Source: JAUWCW01 sp030609125 [NCBI: Candidatus Rokuibacteriota bacterium]
GTDB taxonomy: Bacteria; JAUVQV01
Reading direction: 5' to 3'
NCBI GenBank assembly: GCA_030609125.1
Contig: JAUWCW010000148.1
Span: forward strand, 1 to 5,711
Length of the DNA: 5,711 nucleotides
Part shown: positions 1-5,711 of the stretch, one piece after another
Position numbering within the stretch: position 1 is the first letter of the stretch
How the letters are laid out: each line of letters starts with the position of its first letter
Notes under the pieces: generated by a model
Told to the model about the DNA's origin: nothing
The model's database searches: none
What the model saw: only the letters and a program-made list of their open reading frames with translations
Program-made: the position numbers and the translations under genes

Positions 1-1
1 A

Positions 2-16
2 ACTTGCGCCAACCCC
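2..16 (+). repeat. 15-bp copy of an inverted repeat shared with 4235-4249
   Basis: The string ACTTGCGCCAACCCC occurs here on the plus strand and again on the minus strand at 4249-4235, next to the tRNA-Leu fragment. It is a perfect 15-of-15 match in inverted orientation. The flanking bases do not continue the match well. Its role is unknown; it could be the core of an integration site or the edge of a repeated element. Confidence 0.5.
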
Positions 17-41
17 TTAGTTTTACTAAAGAAGTCGACAA

Positions 42-81
42 TGACTGAGTGTAATTGAGTGTGACTGATTATGACTGAGTT
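42..81. repeat. Four tandem 10-bp repeats (TGACTGAGTG type)
   Basis: Four consecutive 10-base units can be read: TGACTGAGTG, TAATTGAGTG, TGACTGATTA and TGACTGAGTT. The period is exactly ten bases, close to one helical turn. The array sits in non-coding DNA downstream of the transposase remnant and just before the GGACAC repeat at 94-112. No function is recognised. A protein-binding array or the end of a degraded mobile element are both possible. Confidence 0.6.
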
Positions 82-93
82 TGACCGCTGGGT

Positions 94-112
94 GGACACT
101 ATTTGGACACCA
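94..112. repeat. GGACAC double-repeat, copy A
   Basis: The sequence GGACACTATTTGGACACCA holds two GGACAC units 11 bases apart. A second copy in the same orientation lies at 1439-1457 and differs at one base of 19. The two copies bracket the transposase remnant and the coiled-coil gene. They resemble subterminal repeats of a transposon, but no transposase that would use them is present. Confidence 0.6.
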
Positions 113-120
113 AACCTTAG

Positions 121-360
121 TCACAAGTCTGTAATAGAAAAAAACTGCTGAACGCTTACCTGCTCGGAAACCTGGGGTTGAGACCGCGGTTCAGACTCCT
201 TCCAGAGCTTCAGGTGCTCCAGGATCTTCCGGAGGACATGCTCTTCCTGGATGAACGAGATCATGCGCATGGGACCCGAACATTCGGGACAGAGCAGCAG
301 GTCGACCTCGTAGATCCTCTTCATCAGCCGGGCGGCCCGCCGGGGTGAGCCAGCGGGGGT
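121..360 (-). pseudogene. IS91-like (Y2) transposase C-terminal remnant
   Basis: Starting after an in-frame stop at 361-363, this frame reads about 79 residues and ends at a stop at 121-123. The core, ARLMKRIYEVDLLLCPECSG followed by MRMISFI, matches the conserved tail of IS91-like (Y2 transposase) proteins, where a YEVDPLLCPxCGGxM stretch precedes a helix like the one seen here (VLRKILEHLKLW). The zinc-ribbon pair CPEC is kept, but the following CGG-type element is changed to CSG. The catalytic HUH and tyrosine regions, which make up most of a full transposase, are absent, so it cannot be functional. It probably records an old insertion. An alternative is a small gene starting at the ATG at 324, but no convincing ribosome binding site is seen. 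Confidence 0.65.
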
Positions 361-388
361 TCAGCAGAATTCGCCACATGTGCTTTTC

Positions 389-1372
389 TTAGAAGCCGCT
401 GGAGGAGGGCACATTTGAGGGAGCACGCTCTCTCCCGGGAGGAGGTCCCTCGTCCGGCGTCTTCCGTTCACCCGCCAGGTCGAACAGTTCCATTGCCTGA
501 TCGATGGTGGCAGGGTCGGCACTAACCGTTACCGTTATCCTGATTCTGGAAGGACCCAGGTCCGTATGGCTGGCTTCGATATACACTCGGTCCCGCAGGT
601 AGTCCAGGAGTTCAAAAACGACCTGTTCTCCTAAAGGCCCGTCGCCCAGGGAGGGCATGAGCATCTGCAGGGTCTCCATCTCGAGCTGCCGCTGGTAATG
701 CTGCAGCAACGCCTCCATTTTCTCGGCCTCTAGCTGTTCGAGGGCATATTGCTTTTCTGTTCGAAGGTCGAAAAGCGATTGCTTCAGCTCTGCGGCCGAT
801 TCGTCGAGTTCTTCTTCAAGGTCCTCACCGATTTCATTGACTAGGCTATCCTGGTCGATCCTCAGGTCCTCGATATCATCGAGATACTCCTCCTGCAGGT
901 CCTCGCTTCTGCGCTGGTATCTTTCCGGAGAAAGATCGGCAGACAGGCGCTGCTTCTCCTCATTGTGCCTTTCCCTCAGCCTTCTCACATCGTCACGATA
1001 TTCCTCTTGGGCCTGAAGCCGTGCCTCTGCAGCGCCTTCTTTCAGCTTACGGAGAGAAGCGCGATTGTCCTCCCGGATGTCGAGAGCCTGCTGCTCAAAA
1101 CTGTCTAATAGGAAACGTTCCTGCTGAATCCATTCCATCCTCAGTGATTTTGGGAGTTCGGAGAGCGTAGCAGAGTACTCGCCACTCACGGATGCCTGCA
1201 GCAGTCCCGGCTCCTGGGCGGGAGAATGCGGTGTAAGGCCCGCGACCGTTGCCAGAAGGACAAGAGAGCCGGCGACTGCCGGCCTGAGGCGGAACTTCTC
1301 TGGCAGTGCCCCTTCCTTGAGTCTCACCCATTTTCCGGACCATCCGGGAAGTGAATTTTCCAGCATCTTCAA
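389..1372 (-). CDS. Exported coiled-coil protein of unknown function
   Basis: No family is recognised. The 327-residue reading begins at a TTG (1372), with an ATG two codons later (1366) and a GTG at 1327; none has a strong ribosome binding site. A hydrophobic segment at about residues 31-46, followed by the small-residue sequence HSPAQE, looks like a signal peptide. The GTG start at 1327 would give it a more normal n-region. Residues about 75-235 are extremely rich in Glu, Arg, Gln and Leu and should form a long coiled coil, with an acidic patch near 181-195 (IGEDLEEELDE). A short folded-looking domain follows at about 245-303, with alternating hydrophobics (RIRITVTVSA), then a Pro/Ser-rich tail. 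This suggests an extracytoplasmic scaffold or tethering protein, inferred from composition only. The gene lies between two GGACAC repeat copies and beside a transposase remnant. Confidence 0.75.
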   Translation of the reverse strand: MKMLENSLPGWSGKWVRLKEGALPEKFRLRPAVAGSLVLLATVAGLTPHSPAQEPGLLQASVSGEYSATLSELPKSLRMEWIQQERFLLDSFEQQALDIREDNRASLRKLKEGAAEARLQAQEEYRDDVRRLRERHNEEKQRLSADLSPERYQRRSEDLQEEYLDDIEDLRIDQDSLVNEIGEDLEEELDESAAELKQSLFDLRTEKQYALEQLEAEKMEALLQHYQRQLEMETLQMLMPSLGDGPLGEQVVFELLDYLRDRVYIEASHTDLGPSRIRITVTVSADPATIDQAMELFDLAGERKTPDEGPPPGRERAPSNVPSSSGF

Positions 1373-1438
1373 GCCAGCTTAAATCTTTGTTCTTGCGGGC
1401 CCCATGCCCATTTTGGATTGGCGGCAAGGTTCCTGCTA

Positions 1439-1457
1439 GGACACTATATGGACACCA
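1439..1457. repeat. GGACAC double-repeat, copy B
   Basis: GGACACTATATGGACACCA is the second copy of the motif at 94-112, in the same orientation, with one mismatch in 19. It lies about 65-85 bases upstream of the possible starts of the coiled-coil gene. A weak promoter-like pair on the minus strand, TTGAGT at 1484-1479 and TACTAT at 1462-1457 with a 16-base spacer, abuts it, so the repeat could act as an operator. That link is speculative. Confidence 0.55.
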
Positions 1458-1729
1458 TAGTACAGCATTGTCTCAAAAACTCAAGAAAGCTGTATGGTTA
1501 GAGCTAGACCTCTGGGGATTAGTTATCCCATGTTGCCGCAAGCGACTTTCACTGTCACAGGACATTTTCGGGAGAGGCCGGCCGGCCATGCGAAAGAAAA
1601 GTCCTATGTGTTTATGAAAGGAGTCCCGCCGATTGTAGACCGGGGAGTCGCAGATGAAAGGTCGCGGAAAAGGTATCCTGCCGGTCAGGTTGCCGCCGGG
1701 GCGCGAAAGACCACCCGTGACCGACAGGG
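1458..1729. other. Intergenic stretch without a recognised gene
   Basis: Between the FmdB-like gene and the GGACAC repeat no protein gene is supported on either strand. The only notable structure is the 12-base palindrome GGCCGGCCGGCC at 1576-1587. A short plus-strand frame from an ATG at about 1655, preceded by GGGGAG, would run antisense into the end of the FmdB-like gene. It resembles no known protein, so it is not called. Confidence 0.4.
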
Positions 1730-1894
1730 TCAGCTTTTGCTGGATGTCTGGGTGTGGACCGAGGTGAAGCGCTGCGTGACTTTCCTGCTCTTGCACCTGG
1801 GACAGCTTACGCGCTTCTTGTCACGCTCGGAAAGAGTCATGATCAAGGTGAATTTCTTCTTGCAGGCCGTACAGGTGTACTCGTATGTCGGCAT
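1730..1894 (-). CDS. FmdB-like zinc-ribbon protein (54 aa)
   Basis: The reading begins MPTYEYTCTACKKKFTLIM and ends TSSKS followed by a TGA at 1732-1730. It has the layout of the FmdB/CxxC-CxxC-SSSS putative regulatory family: the MPxYEYxCxxC start, a first Cys pair at residues 8 and 11, a second pair at 31 and 34 (CPRC), and a Ser/Thr-rich tail. The four cysteines should bind one zinc ion. Family members are small soluble proteins; the name comes from the fmd locus of Methylophilus, where a role in regulating an amidase/formamidase operon was proposed, but the biochemical role is not settled. The start is strongly supported by AGGAGG at 1908-1903, eight bases upstream. A perfect TATAAT lies on the minus strand at 1962-1957. 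The gene stands alone, well separated from its neighbours. Confidence 0.88.
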   Translation of the reverse strand: MPTYEYTCTACKKKFTLIMTLSERDKKRVSCPRCKSRKVTQRFTSVHTQTSSKS

Positions 1895-1956
1895 TCCTTC
1901 GCCCTCCTTTGCGCAGCGTGTTATCTCCAGCCGTCACGTCGGAGCTTACGGGCGCA

Positions 1957-1962
1957 ATTATA
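1957..1962 (-). promoter_or_regulatory. Candidate -10 box for the FmdB-like gene
   Basis: The minus strand reads TGATATATAATTGCG here, giving a consensus TATAAT about 63 bases upstream of the ATG of the FmdB-like gene. No good -35 hexamer is found at 16-18 bases, but a TG lies five bases before the hexamer, so it is only loosely extended-10-like. The call rests on the perfect hexamer, its position and its strand. Confidence 0.35.
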
Positions 1963-2085
1963 TATCAGCAACACAAGAGAATGATAGCGGGGGGGCGCGG
2001 GACACCGCGATCAGGTACATACGCCCCTTCACTCCCCTGCGTGTGACACAGGCGATTTTGAGTCCAATGGAGGCCGGATCAGGCC

Positions 2086-2109
2086 GCCCCCGTAAGGGGC
2101 CGTTTTCTT
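2086..2109 (+). terminator. Terminator-like hairpin on the plus strand without a matching gene
   Basis: GCCCC at 2086-2090 pairs with GGGGC at 2096-2100 around a CGTAA loop. It is followed by CGTTTTCTT, giving a U-rich tract on the plus-strand RNA. The stem is short (five GC pairs) and the first tail bases are C and G. No supported plus-strand gene lies upstream, so it may end antisense or unseen RNA transcription, or be fortuitous. In the minus direction the hairpin is not followed by T residues. Confidence 0.3.
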
Positions 2110-2150
2110 ACGATAATCCTTCCCGCACAACAAGTTAGAGAATTACCCTG

Positions 2151-2190
2151 CATTGTCCAGATTGGTCCCCATTGGTCTGGATTGGTCTCC
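2151..2190. repeat. Four tandem 10-bp repeats (ATTGGTC type)
   Basis: The units CATTGTCCAG, ATTGGTCCCC, ATTGGTCTGG and ATTGGTCTCC follow one another with an exact ten-base period; the last three share ATTGGTC. The array lies about 60 bases beyond the stop of the arylsulfatase gene. It repeats the ten-base spacing seen at 42-81 with a different unit sequence. No function is known to me for this motif. Confidence 0.65.
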
Positions 2191-2194
2191 TCGC

Positions 2195-2216
2195 GGTTAC
2201 AGTTATGGTTACAGTT
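2195..2216. repeat. Direct repeat GGTTACAGTT, two copies
   Basis: GGTTACAGTT occurs at 2195-2204 and 2207-2216, a 12-base period, immediately after the ATTGGTC array. Together the two arrays fill the 3' flank of the arylsulfatase gene. No terminator-type hairpin with a T tract was found here for that gene. Confidence 0.55.
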
Positions 2217-2249
2217 GGCGCCCCGCTCCCCCGGGTCTGACCGTCACGA

Positions 2250-3908
2250 TCAGAAGCTGATCGGCAGACCTTCTTCTGCGTAGATAATGCCGACTTCCTT
2301 CTCGTACTCATCCCACATTTTCAGAAGGCGCTGTAGCTGCTTAGGATTGTCGGCGTGAAGATCATTTGTTTCACCGGGATCACTGGCGAGGTCGAAGAGC
2401 TGCCAGCCGCTCGTCCCGAAGGGCCTGTCGATCCAGGTGATCTTCCACTGGCCGATCCGTAAGGCCCGCCAGCCCATCATCTCCCAGCCGACCGGCTCGT
2501 CCTCGACGCGCACGGAATCGCTCTTGCCCGTGAGCACCGGCAGTATTGACTTGCCGCGCTGCGACACTATCTTTCTACCCTCGAACGTGTCGGGATAGGT
2601 AGCCCCGGCAATCTCAAGAAAGGTGGGGGCGAGGTCCATGACATGGGAGAAGGCGGTTTCTATCTCACCGGCTCCTTTCACACCCGGACCGCTGACGATC
2701 AAGGGCGAGCGAATACCGCCCTCGGCGATGAAACCCTTGAAGAGCCTAAAGGGCGTCACGCTCGCCTGGGCCCACCCCATACCCTCGGCGATCCGGGACC
2801 CTCGCCGGCCCCAGTTCTCGAAACGGTTGTCGGAGTTGCGCTCGACCCAGGCTTCGTCGGTGCCGGGGTAGGCATGCATCGGCATGCCGTTTGCCCCGTT
2901 GTCAGAAAAGAAAATGACCAACGTGTTGTCGACACGGCCGGATGTTTGCAGGTAGTCGAGGAGCCTGCCGATATGGAAATCTGTGTTCTCCACCATGGCG
3001 GCGTAGATCTCCATCCTCCGTGCTTCCATCTTCCGCTGCTCCGGATCCAGGTCGTCCCACGTTGGGACCATTTCCAGCCAAGACCCGAGAGCAGTCCCCT
3101 CCGGGACAAGGTCCATCTCCTTCATGCGTTCGAGCCGCGCCTTGCGCACGGCATCGTATCCCGCGTCGTAGCTGCCCTTGTACTTGTCGAGCCAGTCGTC
3201 TGGCAGGTGCAGGGGATCGTGCACCGCCGTGTAGGCCAGATAGGCGAAGAAGGGCTTGTCGTCCTTCTGTCCTTCTATGTCCTCAATGATTTTGTCGGTG
3301 TAGAACTTCGAGGAGAAGAAGCCTCTTGGCACGTGGACCCGGACACCGTTCTCCCGGTAGGTCGGCGTGTAGTTGGCGCACATCATCCACTCGTCGTCGA
3401 AGTGGCTTGCCCCGCCCTGGATCAAGGCATAGGACTTCTCGAACCCCCGCCGAAAGGGGTCGTGCTCCGGCTCTTCGCCCAGGTGCCACTTGCCGGCCAT
3501 GTAGGTGTGGTAGCCGGCCTCCTTCATCAGGGACGCAACCGAGACGACCCGGTCGTTGAGGTACCCCTCGTAGCCGGGCTGGCCAATCTGGTTCGGGGCG
3601 AGACCTTCGGCATTGGCTCCCATGCCGGCCACGTGGTTGTCGGTGCCCGACATGAGCATCGAGCGCGTCGGCGAACAGGCCGGGCCGACGTAGAAGTCGG
3701 TGAATTTCACGCCCGATGCGGCCAGGCGATCAAGGGCGGGAGTGCGGATCTCGGCGCCGAAGGGTCCGATGTCGGAGTAGCCCATGTCGTCGATGACGAT
3801 GAGCATGATGTTGGGCCTCTCTCCGGCACCTGCCGGACGCACCGCCATACTGCAAAGAACGAGGAATGCCGCTACCAGCAAAAGAGCCGCATTGAGGAAA
3901 AGCTTCAT
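2250..3908 (-). CDS. Arylsulfatase, PAS (AtsA) type, with signal peptide
   Basis: A 552-residue sulfatase that should hydrolyse sulfate esters to release sulfate. The N-terminus (residues 1-29, MKLFLNAALLLVAAFLVLCS and on to AGAG) is a signal peptide, so the enzyme should act outside the cytoplasm; the Cys at 19 lacks a lipobox. The sulfatase core starts at RPNIMLIVIDDMGYSD. Metal ligands are D40, D41, D336 and N337 (SDNG). The signature CSPTRSMLMSG places the formylglycine-forming Cys at 78 and its Arg at 82. K140 and H142 (GKWHLG), H230 (AVHDP) and K391 (FRLFKG) complete the active site. Their spacing mirrors the Pseudomonas aeruginosa enzyme (residues 13, 14, 51, 55, 113, 115, 211, 317, 318, 375). 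The Cys-type site needs FGE or anSME, which is not encoded here. The ATG is preceded by AGGGG at 3920-3916, seven bases away. Substrate cannot be told from sequence. Confidence 0.96.
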   Translation of the reverse strand: MKLFLNAALLLVAAFLVLCSMAVRPAGAGERPNIMLIVIDDMGYSDIGPFGAEIRTPALDRLAASGVKFTDFYVGPACSPTRSMLMSGTDNHVAGMGANAEGLAPNQIGQPGYEGYLNDRVVSVASLMKEAGYHTYMAGKWHLGEEPEHDPFRRGFEKSYALIQGGASHFDDEWMMCANYTPTYRENGVRVHVPRGFFSSKFYTDKIIEDIEGQKDDKPFFAYLAYTAVHDPLHLPDDWLDKYKGSYDAGYDAVRKARLERMKEMDLVPEGTALGSWLEMVPTWDDLDPEQRKMEARRMEIYAAMVENTDFHIGRLLDYLQTSGRVDNTLVIFFSDNGANGMPMHAYPGTDEAWVERNSDNRFENWGRRGSRIAEGMGWAQASVTPFRLFKGFIAEGGIRSPLIVSGPGVKGAGEIETAFSHVMDLAPTFLEIAGATYPDTFEGRKIVSQRGKSILPVLTGKSDSVRVEDEPVGWEMMGWRALRIGQWKITWIDRPFGTSGWQLFDLASDPGETNDLHADNPKQLQRLLKMWDEYEKEVGIIYAEEGLPISF

Positions 3909-4004
3909 CTTTTATCCCCTTTCCTTAAACCGATTAGGAGTTATTTTTTTGCATGACGTGCCAGACTCTCTTGAAAATGCCAAGTGGCGGCGCCAGTAAG
4001 TTGT

Positions 4005-4032
4005 ATTTTGACAGCGTGCAGAGGGCTGTCAA
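4005..4032 (-). promoter_or_regulatory. Candidate promoter with overlapping inverted repeat
   Basis: On the minus strand TTGACA (4032-4027) is a perfect -35 hexamer, followed after 16 bases by CAAAAT (4010-4005), a four-of-six match to the -10 consensus. The arms TTGACAG (4008-4014) and CTGTCAA (4026-4032) form a perfect 7-bp inverted repeat with an 11-base loop lying across the promoter, the layout of a repressor operator. Transcription would leave a leader of roughly 90 bases before the arylsulfatase ATG. The -10 is weak, so this is tentative. Confidence 0.4.
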
Positions 4033-4055
4033 GGCAGGAGTGATACTGGCGGGAC

Positions 4056-4080
4056 GATCGCCTTGCATTGAAAGGCGATC
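4056..4080. repeat. Perfect 9-bp inverted repeat
   Basis: GATCGCCTT (4056-4064) and AAGGCGATC (4072-4080) are perfectly complementary around the seven-base loop GCATTGA. No T tract follows on either strand, so it does not look like an intrinsic terminator. It lies between the arylsulfatase promoter candidate and the TGACAC repeat. It could be an operator or part of a degraded element end. Confidence 0.6.
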
Positions 4081-4091
4081 ACTGTAAAGAC

Positions 4092-4120
4092 TGACACAAT
4101 TTCTGACACAGTGGCCCTTT
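4092..4120. repeat. TGACAC double-repeat, copy A
   Basis: TGACACAATTTCTGACAC followed by AGTG and a CCCTTT stretch; the two TGACAC units are 12 bases apart. A second copy at 5654-5682 has the same orientation, with 22 identical bases and then one mismatch in the next seven. The pair brackets the tRNA-Leu fragment and the CBS/two-CW genes. The layout resembles transposon subterminal repeats, but no transposase is present between them. Confidence 0.65.
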
Positions 4121-4169
4121 TCGAGCCCTCTGAGAAAAACAGGGAGGCCCGGTAAGTGCCTGAAAAATA

Positions 4170-4225
4170 TGGTGCCGGAGGTGGGAATCGAACCCACACG
4201 AGGACAAGCCTCAAGGGATTTTAAG
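4170..4225 (-). pseudogene. 3' half of tRNA-Leu(UAA); probable integration (att) scar
   Basis: Read on the minus strand this is the exact 3' part of a leucine tRNA: anticodon loop CTTAAAA (4225-4219, anticodon UAA), 3' anticodon arm TCCCT, the long class II variable arm GAGG-CTTGT-CCTC, T stem-loop GTGGG-TTCGATT-CCCAC, acceptor strand CTCCGGC, discriminator A and encoded CCA. The bases upstream (TCGCC) cannot pair with the anticodon arm, and no D arm or GCCGGAG acceptor 5' strand is found. The tRNA therefore stops at the anticodon loop and is not functional. Tyrosine integrases commonly recombine within tRNA 3' halves and leave such a copy at one end of the inserted island. If so, inserted DNA would lie at coordinates above 4225 and older chromosome below 4170. 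Confidence 0.85.
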
Positions 4226-4234
4226 GGCGAAAAC

Positions 4235-4249
4235 GGGGTTGGCGCAAGT
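4235..4249 (-). repeat. 15-bp copy of an inverted repeat shared with 2-16
   Basis: On the minus strand this reads ACTTGCGCCAACCCC, identical to positions 2-16 on the plus strand. It lies nine bases upstream of the truncation point of the tRNA-Leu fragment, on the side expected to be inserted DNA. This makes an arm-type integrase site or element edge conceivable, but nothing in the window proves it. Confidence 0.5.
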
Positions 4250-4335
4250 CTTCGACAACTGAACTGCTTCGGGAGGGGAATTCCTGGGGCATTGTTCTAC
4301 ATAAAAAGAACTGTTCCAATTAACGTCCCAAGCCC

Positions 4336-4366
4336 CCCCCTGCGGCCCCTCGCCCGAAGCAGGGGG
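4336..4366. repeat. GC-rich inverted repeat downstream of the CBS gene
   Basis: CCCCCTGC (4336-4343) pairs with GCAGGGGG (4359-4366) around a 15-base loop. It lies about 60 bases past the stop of the CBS-pair gene and could end or protect that transcript. It lacks a T tract on the minus strand, so it is not called an intrinsic terminator. Confidence 0.35.
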
Positions 4367-4426
4367 AGGGACCGCCCGACGGAGACCTTGGGCGCGCCTG
4401 GGACCAAGCGTCGCTCACGCGCTGGA

Positions 4427-4930
4427 TCAGCCTCCCTGGATATACTTCTCGTGCTCGCCGATGAGATGCTGCTGGCTGGTGATGAACGACTTCGCCAGGT
4501 CGCCAATGGACACGATGCCCACCAGCCGTTCTCTGTCGCAGACGGGGAAGTGGCGCACACGCCCGGCGGTCATGAGGGACATGCACTCCGCCACGCTGTC
4601 CCCGGAGGAGACGATCTGCACCGGCGAGCTCATGACCTCCTCGACGCGCGTGTCCCTGGACGACTTTTCAAAGAGGACGATCTTGCGGGCGTAGTCGCGC
4701 TCGGAAAACACTCCCACCACCTTCCCACCGTCGACGACGACCAGCGCTCCCACGTTCTTTTGCTGCATGAGCTCAAGGGCATAGAACACCTTCGCCTCTG
4801 GCGGAATAGTCCAGACCTCGGCCCGCTTTCCGGCCAGTACGTCCCGGACAATGGTCCCCCCGAGACACCTGCTCTTGATGTAGGACCCGATGTCGTCCAT
4901 CCCCCGTTTCCGCGGACCCTGTTTCTCCAT
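4427..4930 (-). CDS. CBS-pair protein
   Basis: A 167-residue soluble protein made almost entirely of two tandem CBS domains, a module that binds adenosyl nucleotides such as AMP, ATP or NAD(H) and usually signals energy or redox state. The first domain (about 40-88) ends with VVGVFSERDYARKI and the second (about 99-149) with LVGIVSIGDLAKSFI. Each keeps the G-hydrophobic-S-x-x-D element that contacts the ribose phosphate. The SERDYARK and EVM plus MTAGRVRHFPV strings match stand-alone bacterial CBS-pair proteins. No membrane or effector domain is attached. The ATG at 4930 is chosen because GAGGTGA lies just upstream. An in-frame ATG at 4972 would add 14 basic residues and overlap the stop of the preceding two-CW gene as ATGA. 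Either way the two genes look co-transcribed. The direct target is unknown. Confidence 0.92.
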   Translation of the reverse strand: MEKQGPRKRGMDDIGSYIKSRCLGGTIVRDVLAGKRAEVWTIPPEAKVFYALELMQQKNVGALVVVDGGKVVGVFSERDYARKIVLFEKSSRDTRVEEVMSSPVQIVSSGDSVAECMSLMTAGRVRHFPVCDRERLVGIVSIGDLAKSFITSQQHLIGEHEKYIQGG

Positions 4931-4968
4931 GACGTCACCTCGCTCTTCACGTCGGGCGCAGCGCCCTT

Positions 4969-5271
4969 TCATTCTTCGATCACCCTTGCGACCAGCGCGC
5001 TGCAGAGAAGGAACCTGGGAAACTCCTCCACCTGGACGCTCTTGTAGAATTCACACCTCTCGCACGCCCGGAACTTGCTCGCGAATGTGCCCTGTACCTC
5101 GTCGGCGCACAGAGTCCCGGCGACGACCCAACAGGCCCGACCGGCGTTTCTCCCGCCGTGGACGCCATCGAGCCGCGTCTCCAGCGCGGCCGGGCAGGTC
5201 CCAAGGCGGGCCGCATCTCTCCCGCCCTCCTCTCTGCCGCACGCCTTCACCTCCCAGCAGTTCCTTTTCAC
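4969..5271 (-). CDS. Two-CW domain Cys-rich protein
   Basis: A 100-residue protein with the pattern of the two-CW family: KRNCWEVKACGRE at the N-terminus, GTCPAA at 24-29, the second CW in GRACWVVAGTLC (44-55), then VQGTFASK and CERCEFY (70-76). Cysteines fall at 5, 11, 26, 47, 55, 70, 73 and 90, most at family-conserved positions, which suggests a metal or redox centre. The family's biochemical role is not established as far as I know. There is no signal peptide or membrane segment. The start is a GTG at 5271, with TGAGGA at 5280-5275 close upstream. The gene runs into the CBS-pair gene, with a 38-base gap or a 4-base overlap depending on the start used. The pairing suggests a shared sensing role, which is inference. 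Confidence 0.88.
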   Translation of the reverse strand: MKRNCWEVKACGREEGGRDAARLGTCPAALETRLDGVHGGRNAGRACWVVAGTLCADEVQGTFASKFRACERCEFYKSVQVEEFPRFLLCSALVARVIEE

Positions 5272-5653
5272 TTGTCCTCACCACCTTTCCGGGGCTGGTA
5301 TTGTCGCCGCGGGACTCACGTCCCGCCCGGCGCGACCGAGTATGCGGCAGGGAAAACACCTGTTCCTTCGGCAGAGCGGAAAAGAGGTCGTCGAACCTGA
5401 AGCGGCGTTCCAGGGGGAAGCGTGCGCCCCTCGTGCTTTCTTGATCGCCCATAGGAGTTTGCTTTACGCATATTATCAGGCCAAAGTCAATTTGGTCTGG
5501 ACCGTCATCTCCTGATTCCCCTCCCGGCTATTTCATATTCAATATGGTACCTGGGAGAGACCGCTGTCAACCGGTCGCATGGGAGAGGGGAGGATTTACG
5601 ATTTCGAGTTCCTTATCTTCTGTGAAGACGTAACTCAGTGGTCCATCCAAAAT
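5272..5653. other. Long leader/intergenic region upstream of the two-CW gene
   Basis: About 380 bases with no recognised gene. On the minus strand an open frame beginning at an ATG at 5452 runs through into the two-CW gene in another frame; it lacks a ribosome binding site and resembles nothing known. An AT-rich patch at 5465-5490 (minus strand TTGACT then GATAATATG) has promoter-like words, but their spacing is wrong. A short palindrome, CATATT-C-AATATG, lies at 5534-5546. A hairpin at 5309-5326 is listed separately. Confidence 0.4.
5309..5326 (-). promoter_or_regulatory. GNRA-capped hairpin in the leader of the two-CW gene
   Basis: GCGGGAC and GTCCCGC form a perfect 7-bp stem around a four-base loop. 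On the minus-strand RNA the loop is GUGA, a stable GNRA tetraloop; on the plus strand it would be UCAC. It ends 37 bases before the GTG start. A leader role in stability or translation is plausible, but its function is not shown. No T tract follows, so it is not a terminator. Confidence 0.45.
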
Positions 5654-5682
5654 TGACACAATTTCTGACACAGTGCCCCTTT
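5654..5682. repeat. TGACAC double-repeat, copy B
   Basis: This is the second copy of the motif at 4092-4120, in the same orientation and identical over the first 22 bases, then CCCCTTT in place of GCCCTTT. It is in non-coding DNA near the right edge of the window. The similarity fades just after the CCCTTT stretch. Confidence 0.65.
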
Positions 5683-5711
5683 CGGGACCATCGGCTGAAA
5701 AGTCAAAGGCC

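Follow-up and report, generated by a model that had tools for sequence, protein, structure and literature searches.

The half tRNA-Leu(UAA) on a short contig of a Candidatus Rokuibacteriota genome is a real scar left by the insertion of mobile DNA into a tRNA gene. We consider it likely that it forms the core of an attachment site for a tyrosine integrase, at the junction of two tandem, decayed units that carry no integrase gene. Half tRNAs found on their own are commonly read as island edges; the one described here is more probably a seam where two worn insertions adjoin than an edge between native and foreign DNA, and this reading adds the side carrying a sulfatase gene to the acquired genes. 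The sequence analysed (the window; 5,711 nucleotides) is the complete contig C221 of a 2.32 Mb genome in 376 contigs (G000; completeness 92.4%, contamination 2.15%). In our set of 386 relatives no genome of the same genus or family was found, and a single one, G001, belongs to the same order.

The half tRNA and the repeats around it

Read from 4225 down to 4170 on the minus strand, a strand that the original prediction did not name, the 56 nt comprise position 32, the anticodon UAA, the 3' strand of the anticodon stem, a long variable arm, the T arm, the 3' strand of the acceptor and CCA, with C32 at the 5' edge of the anticodon loop and the 5' half of the tRNA missing. A gapless alignment with the complete tRNA-Leu(UAA) of G001 covers 56 of 56 positions; in the genome search, this gene was matched with 84% over 56 bp (E = 1.2e-10). 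The gapless alignment agrees with the original prediction of a tRNA-Leu(UAA) 3' half that ends at the anticodon loop and lacks its 5' half, whereas the description 'intact to the base' holds for the structure but not beyond it, the intact partner gene being absent from the assembly. Matches to the half-tRNA query at E <= 0.001 occur in 106 of 192 genomes, its own included. Among the matches listed, those in foreign genomes all stop by query base 76, i.e. window position 4225; the matches that go further are that of the window to itself and that of another copy elsewhere in the same genome. The break at 4225 is real and sharp, and its position at C32 is that of a displaced tRNA fragment whose first base falls in an established crossover subsite, the anticodon loop. 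With only half a gene present, it is to be expected that ARAGORN made no tRNA call in the window and that Rfam (E <= 1) returned two sub-cut-off matches for the half tRNA, a plastid 3'UTR family (0.71) and the T arm of tmRNA (0.95).

The same genome has another, more degenerate half tRNA of this kind, decayed at T-loop and acceptor positions, at C225:565-620, within an 88% match to window positions 4154-4252. Phages searched with positions 4140-4300 gave six records with 22-34% query coverage, within the tRNA part; plasmids searched with 4075-4262 (E <= 10) gave 110 records, none with a single place covering 80%, and the best 20 of these 110 lie at query positions 87-154, i.e. in the tRNA part or adjoining it. 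The junction 19-mer GGGATTTTAAGGGCGAAAA was found in four stretches of genome contigs, which have no tRNA-like context within 130 bases per side and, judged by eye, seem to be protein-coding.

Table 1. Features of the window
Feature	Positions	Strand	Basis
3' half of tRNA-Leu(UAA), C32 to CCA; probable attachment-site core	4170..4225	-	gapless alignment; foreign matches end at 4225
P' arm remnant on the loop side: 9-bp spacer and first inverted-repeat arm (4235-4249), then broken off	4226..4256	+	
P' arm of unit B: second inverted-repeat arm (2-16), 10-bp repeats, GGACAC pair	1..115	+	model R1; four-way alignment
10-bp direct repeats, TGACTGAGTG type	42..86	+	sequence; alignment
GGACACTATTTGGACACC arm pair, P' side	94..111	+	same 18-mer in 3' end of intact G043 integrase gene
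Lone GGACAC pair within unit B, GGACACTATATGGACACC	1439..1456	+	
Probable integrase 3'-tail relic, serving as P arm; KTDTISDTVALFEPSEKNREAR, stop TAA 4153-4155	4087..4155	+	open frame; position and spacing in G001:C176
GACAC direct-repeat pair, arm-type, P side, 116 nt from C32	4093..4109	+	identical offset in G001:C176
Short flank from tail stop codon to CCA	4156..4169	+	resembles C225 flank and flank of G001 tRNA-Leu(CAA)
Second probable integrase-tail relic/P arm; pair 5655-5671	5649..5711	+	77% to 4087-4139
C-terminal relic of IS91/ISCR-type transposase	121..324	-	tblastn; NCBIfam
327-aa ORF, unit B	389..1372	-	Pfam search (E <= 0.01) negative
Sulfatase gene, unit B cargo	2250..3908	-	PF00884, E 2.9e-56
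CBS-domain protein gene, unit A cargo	4427..4972	-	PF00571, E 1.2e-25
Two-CW domain protein gene, unit A cargo	4969..5271	-	NF045718, E 1.5e-32

On the loop side, the repeat arm GGGGTTGGCGCAAGT recurs without mismatch, in reverse complement, at window positions 2-16, close to the start of the contig. On C225, the 4226-4256 remnant likewise adjoins the half tRNA, and there both arms of the inverted repeat stand together, followed by TGACTGAGTG-type 10-bp repeats and then by a GGACAC pair. The first 115 positions of the window contain these C225-type parts from the second arm onward; at the middle junction (4226-4256) the P' arm ends after the first repeat arm, with no GGACAC pair. Upstream of C32, CCAACCCC starts at a distance of 17 nt in the window and of 18 nt in both C225 and G001, and the P' pair starts 130 nt before C32 in C225 and 151 nt before it in G001. 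The full inverted-repeat hairpin has a z-score of -3.9 in C225 and of -2.6 in G001. A sequence model of the P' arm, R1, located four places in the window's own genome (C221:1, C65:1, C225:663 and C225:7244). Plasmids searched with window positions 1-140 gave no match, and pattern searches of viral contigs gave no stretches apart from one case (L105), a match within a 1,309-aa ORF with no tRNA. The idea that the inverted repeat is the end of an IS91-like element was rejected on the basis of C225, whose P' arms have no IS91 relic in view. These two P' arms (L003, C225:565-7354) share one orientation and are separated by about 6.6 kb; the second has no adjoining half tRNA in view, and the ORFs between them read as a putative mechanosensitive channel, cytochrome c biogenesis and RNA 3'-phosphate cyclase proteins.

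On the CCA side, the segment 4087-4139 recurs at 5649-5701 (77%), and the corresponding frames, KTDTISDTVALFEPSEKNREAR up to the stop codon and KIDTISDTVPLSGPSAEKSKA up to the contig end, each contain a GACAC direct-repeat pair. The alignment of the second tail ends at the position equivalent to 4149, and the contig stops just short of the expected stop codon and tRNA. Both tails are probably 3' ends of integrase genes that double as P arms; the frame at 4087-4155 is short, and it is its position, its spacing and the analogues in G001 and G043, rather than a domain match, that point to an integrase relic. GACAC pairs, which together with the GGACAC pairs are putative integrase binding sites, occur four times in the window against 0.07 expected, a number that none of 200 shuffles reaches. 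In the whole genome, a reversed-pattern control gave two chance matches versus six for the GGACAC pair (one of the six in a coding gene). The pair at 1439-1456 has no adjoining tRNA piece or inverted repeat that we could see and might perhaps be a third worn junction.

A model of the tail, R2, matched the window alone over 35 sources, including contigs C28 and C64 of G001, and no further true copy in its own genome, where a match at C22:609-684 (E 0.06) proved to be the end of an ordinary membrane-protein ORF. Also discarded were a GGACAC-type pair on C72, inside an ORF read as aspartate kinase, and a GACAC pair in L005, coding by eye. A GACAC pair in L009 was set aside; at this locus (C177:1498-2491), TGTCAC repeats with a 12-bp period lie 5' of a tRNA-Met and are followed by a serine-recombinase-like gene, as judged by eye.

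A same-order island and the search for partners

In a search of 60 genomes, R1 gave matches at E <= 0.1 in five, including its own, with G001 at 6.6e-4; the sequence was examined for G001 and for both matches in the distant genome G043, and G040 and G048 were covered by tRNA scan only. The second G043 match (G043:C6) offered nothing notable in 701 bases. In G001, by contrast, R1 led to a site where a GTGTCC pair occurs together with an inverted repeat that has CCAACCCC at its end and with a tRNA-Arg(ACG) 3' half. On the same contig, C176, a complete tRNA-Arg(ACG) occupies 31188-31264, and the 3' half, oriented alike, begins at 35826, 4,561 bp away; the stretch over which the two copies are identical begins three bases ahead of C32 and runs to 19 bp past CCA. 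Beside the CCA end of the complete tRNA lies a 153-aa frame with integrase fragments (PF00589 matches 47 residues at E 2e-6, and a 68-residue alignment with the intact integrase of G043 has 38% identity), and a GACAC pair sits in the end of this frame. The stretch in between, which encodes a subtilase-family protein, is a complete, decayed island with the same architecture at another tRNA.

From C32 to the start of the pair, the distance is 116 nt in the window and likewise beside the complete G001 tRNA, even though the tRNA halves measure 56 and 45 nt, respectively. In G001, the GACAC pair is found at the end with the intact tRNA and the inverted repeat at the end with the half tRNA, whereas the half tRNA of the window has both; the half-tRNA end of G001 has no GACAC pair across C176:35691-40048. 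An intact tRNA with a matching 3' half at the far end, as seen for tRNA-Arg in G001:C176, was not found for the window. In G043, the 18-mer GGACACTATTTGGACACC is found in the 3' end of a gene for an intact 349-aa integrase, and a gap of 11 bp separates the end of this gene from a tRNA-Arg(CCT).

Within the window's own genome, RF00005 yielded 34 above-cut-off tRNA genes, anticodons were obtained for 34 of 34, and the lone tRNA-Leu among them is GAG. A pattern search for tRNA-Leu(UAA) 3' halves in this 92%-complete assembly matched the window only, and PF00589 occurs in two places, a gene on C151, which we read as XerC/D-like, and a contig-end fragment on C166 adjoining a tRNA-Arg(CCG). C221 itself has only tail-like relics and lacks an integrase gene for the half-tRNA site. 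Thus, two expectations of the original prediction did not materialize: the pattern search and the 34 tRNA genes revealed no complete partner tRNA-Leu(UAA) in the assembly, and neither PF00589 place provides a tyrosine integrase near the site. Both partners may sit in the missing part of the assembly.

The C166 fragment (L036, positions 1-602) ends right before the 5' end of the tRNA-Arg(CCG), with GGCACCAGACAGGCACC in its 3' part, and the integrase is on the 5' side of the tRNA here as it is in G043 (L101). In G001, a scripted motif search located an integrase-like frame, HDTRHTWATRYMEAGGTVAELMKHGGW, 5' of the intact tRNA-Leu(UAA) (L081, C64:9297-9738); tRNA-Leu(UAA) may be a target there too.

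Seam or island edge

As a single half tRNA lies between a P arm and the beginning of a P' arm (4087-4249), the junction looks either attP-like or like a chimeric internal junction of a tandem, and the tail and arm-site pair on the CCA side make a seam of acquired units likelier than a boundary between native and acquired DNA. The idea of a tyrosine-integrase scar is thus upheld by the parallel in G001:C176, but the same tail and arm pair on the CCA side speak against the simple island-boundary layout that was originally proposed with it.

Such a seam could have been generated by a tyrosine integrase specific for the anticodon loop that put successive elements into one tRNA-Leu(UAA). The integrase would swap strands at the anticodon loop, which makes the tRNA 3' half (C32 to CCA) the displaced or carried piece, and every insertion would restore the tRNA and leave a 3' half behind, with the integrase bodies being lost in later decay. 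The P arm would be the GACAC direct-repeat pair within the 3' end of the integrase gene itself, on the CCA side, and the P' arm the GGACAC pair past the core-proximal inverted repeat, on the loop side. Unit B would then span positions 1-4155, from the P' arm (1-115) to the P arm (4087-4155), and carry the IS91/ISCR relic, the 327-aa protein and the sulfatase; unit A, mostly on the contig, would extend over 4226-5711, from the P' remnant (4226-4256) to the P arm (5649-5711), with the CBS and two-CW proteins. The attachment-site parts of unit B are its P' arm at 1-115 and P arm plus core at 4087-4225, with the left core off the contig, and those of unit A are a truncated P' arm and a right core that is again off the contig. 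What can be seen directly is the half tRNA, the complete G001 island and the repeats with their spacing; tandem integration and the order of the units would be the history behind them, with the intact tRNA-Leu presumably off the contig, and this tandem reading relies on sequence past both contig ends. Against it stand the shortness of the tail, of which R2 located no further true copy, the P' arm broken off at the middle junction, the ordinary composition of unit A and the two chance matches of the reversed-pattern control. The relics of the two units are probably no longer self-mobile. The starts of C221 and C65 are identical over 288 bp except for two bases, and C221 start, C65 start and C221 end all stop at junction parts, which is how contig ends at a collapsed repeat would look; C221 illustrates how att-type repeats may sit at contig breaks in fragmented genomes. 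Past the shared 288 bp, i.e. the P' arm and the transposase tail, C65 has toxin-antitoxin genes of the Phd/PIN and HepT types.

Alternatively, the half tRNA could be a simple attR, with one island above 4225, native chromosome below 4170 and the tail-like repeat on the CCA side being either incidental or part of a native flank shared within the order. A 3' half without a 5' half fits an attR, and the C225 copy, which has no GACAC pair within 700 bp on its CCA side, indeed looks like a plain attR. Moreover, the complete tRNA-Leu(CAA) on G001:C28 carries the flank GTAAGTGCCTGAAA, as the window does: in 386 genomes, this flank pattern occurs on C221 and C225, on G001:C28 and in one coding gene of G053 (discarded as lying within a 500-aa ORF with no tRNA), and G001:C28, by way of an exact 14-mer, was the best of 45 flanks compared, i.e. 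C225 and 44 tRNA flanks that come from overlapping loci and are partly dependent, with two of 2000 shuffles reaching its score. We nevertheless regard a simple attR as unlikely, since the GACAC pair has precisely the +116 offset that is found on the element side of G001, and since the tail recurs at 5649, where no tRNA is visible. In addition, base composition is the opposite of what a simple attR would lead one to expect. Positions 4226-5711 are native-like (GC 60.7%; ordinary tetranucleotides, with 45.7% of 70 background pieces deviating as much or more), and it is 3909-4169 (0.8% of 395 pieces), along with 1373-2240 (2.7% of 149), that are tetranucleotide outliers, with 1-1372 borderline (6.1% of 82) and the sulfatase gene ordinary (25.9% of 58). 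The proposal that DNA above 4225 is acquired survives in the form of unit A of a tandem, but sits uneasily with this native-like composition and with the atypical parts on the other side.

The five window ORFs searched against Pfam include no integrase or transfer genes, only the sulfatase and CBS proteins, to which NCBIfam adds the two-CW protein. The transposase relic gave tblastn matches in 4,773 plasmid records, several of them annotated as IS91 family transposase, and a match to NCBIfam ISCR_clade_Ia (E 1.1e-4) far under the cut-off of this model. The 327-aa ORF has one insignificant NCBIfam match (E 0.07); its product is rich in charged residues and has coiled-coil-like sequence.

Decidedly improbable is a true attP, with the contig deriving in part from an excised circle or from an element that entered a different site in some other way. 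It would account for the order of P arm, core and P' start, and the IS91/ISCR relic adjoins the P' arm both at the contig start and again on C65; however, with the integrase missing and the P' arm truncated there is no working element, and the two P' arms on C225 come without an IS91 relic in view. Finally, group I introns of tRNA-Leu(UAA) lie in the anticodon arm, where the window's break is also found, but a split, intron-bearing or otherwise odd tRNA gene with no mobile scar is hardly credible given that Rfam finds neither an intron nor a tRNA family, the break falls at position 32 outside the anticodon, no intact 5' partner is seen, integrase-type repeats flank the half and the C225 copy is decayed in its T-loop and acceptor.

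Returning to the seam of two worn insertions, the fixed +116 spacing, which a tRNA-Leu site and a tRNA-Arg site of this order have in common, provides a testable description of the attachment site of an integrase family. A more far-reaching and quite doubtful proposition would be that one integrase family in this order maintains a rigid architecture across Leu and Arg halves—a GACAC pair at +116 and, ahead of C32, an inverted repeat at a distance of about 17 nt followed further out by a GGACAC pair—with half tRNAs separating short integrase-less units in a somewhat cassette-like array that an integrase could shuffle in trans.

Relation to known systems

A literature search, covering listings and the openings of abstracts, brought up no report of this exact attachment-site architecture, which is weak evidence; the type of structure as such is already known. 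According to the part of the Islander paper drawn on here (PMC4383910), 3,760 of 3,919 islands have a 3' fragment, 2,083 have an anticodon-centred site and 125 tandems of two or more occur. As in Islander islands, the displaced 3' fragment in the window begins at the anticodon loop; however, Islander requires an integrase and an intact tRNA, of which the window has neither, and its tandem arrays need one integrase per island, whereas the window has one fragment and integrase tails only. Excerpts of a study on partial tRNA duplications left by integrating elements (PMC9897764) describe annotation errors, mainly in archaea; in contrast to such mis-annotated fragments, the half in the window is called by neither ARAGORN nor Rfam. 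At the Dehalococcoides ssrA locus, as far as the portion of the report used here goes (PMC3146451), tandem islands are split by short copies of the 3' end of an RNA gene, and 15 islands have no integration module, but a serine recombinase and tmRNA are involved there, and tyrosine-integrase signs and tRNA-Leu in the window.

For streptococci, the sections of two papers considered here (PMC7563491, PMC5704250) describe CIMEs and accretion, i.e. integrase-less units with attachment sites lying side by side at one target, including a chimeric internal attachment site, with classical CIMEs having a size of 1.2-13 kb. The units in the window are likewise adjacent and have attachment sites but no integrase gene; they differ from CIMEs as presented there in that no ICE or IME parent is seen, their attachment sites are partly truncated and their mobility is putative. 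Tandem accretion and CIMEs are the nearest known counterparts of the structure seen here.
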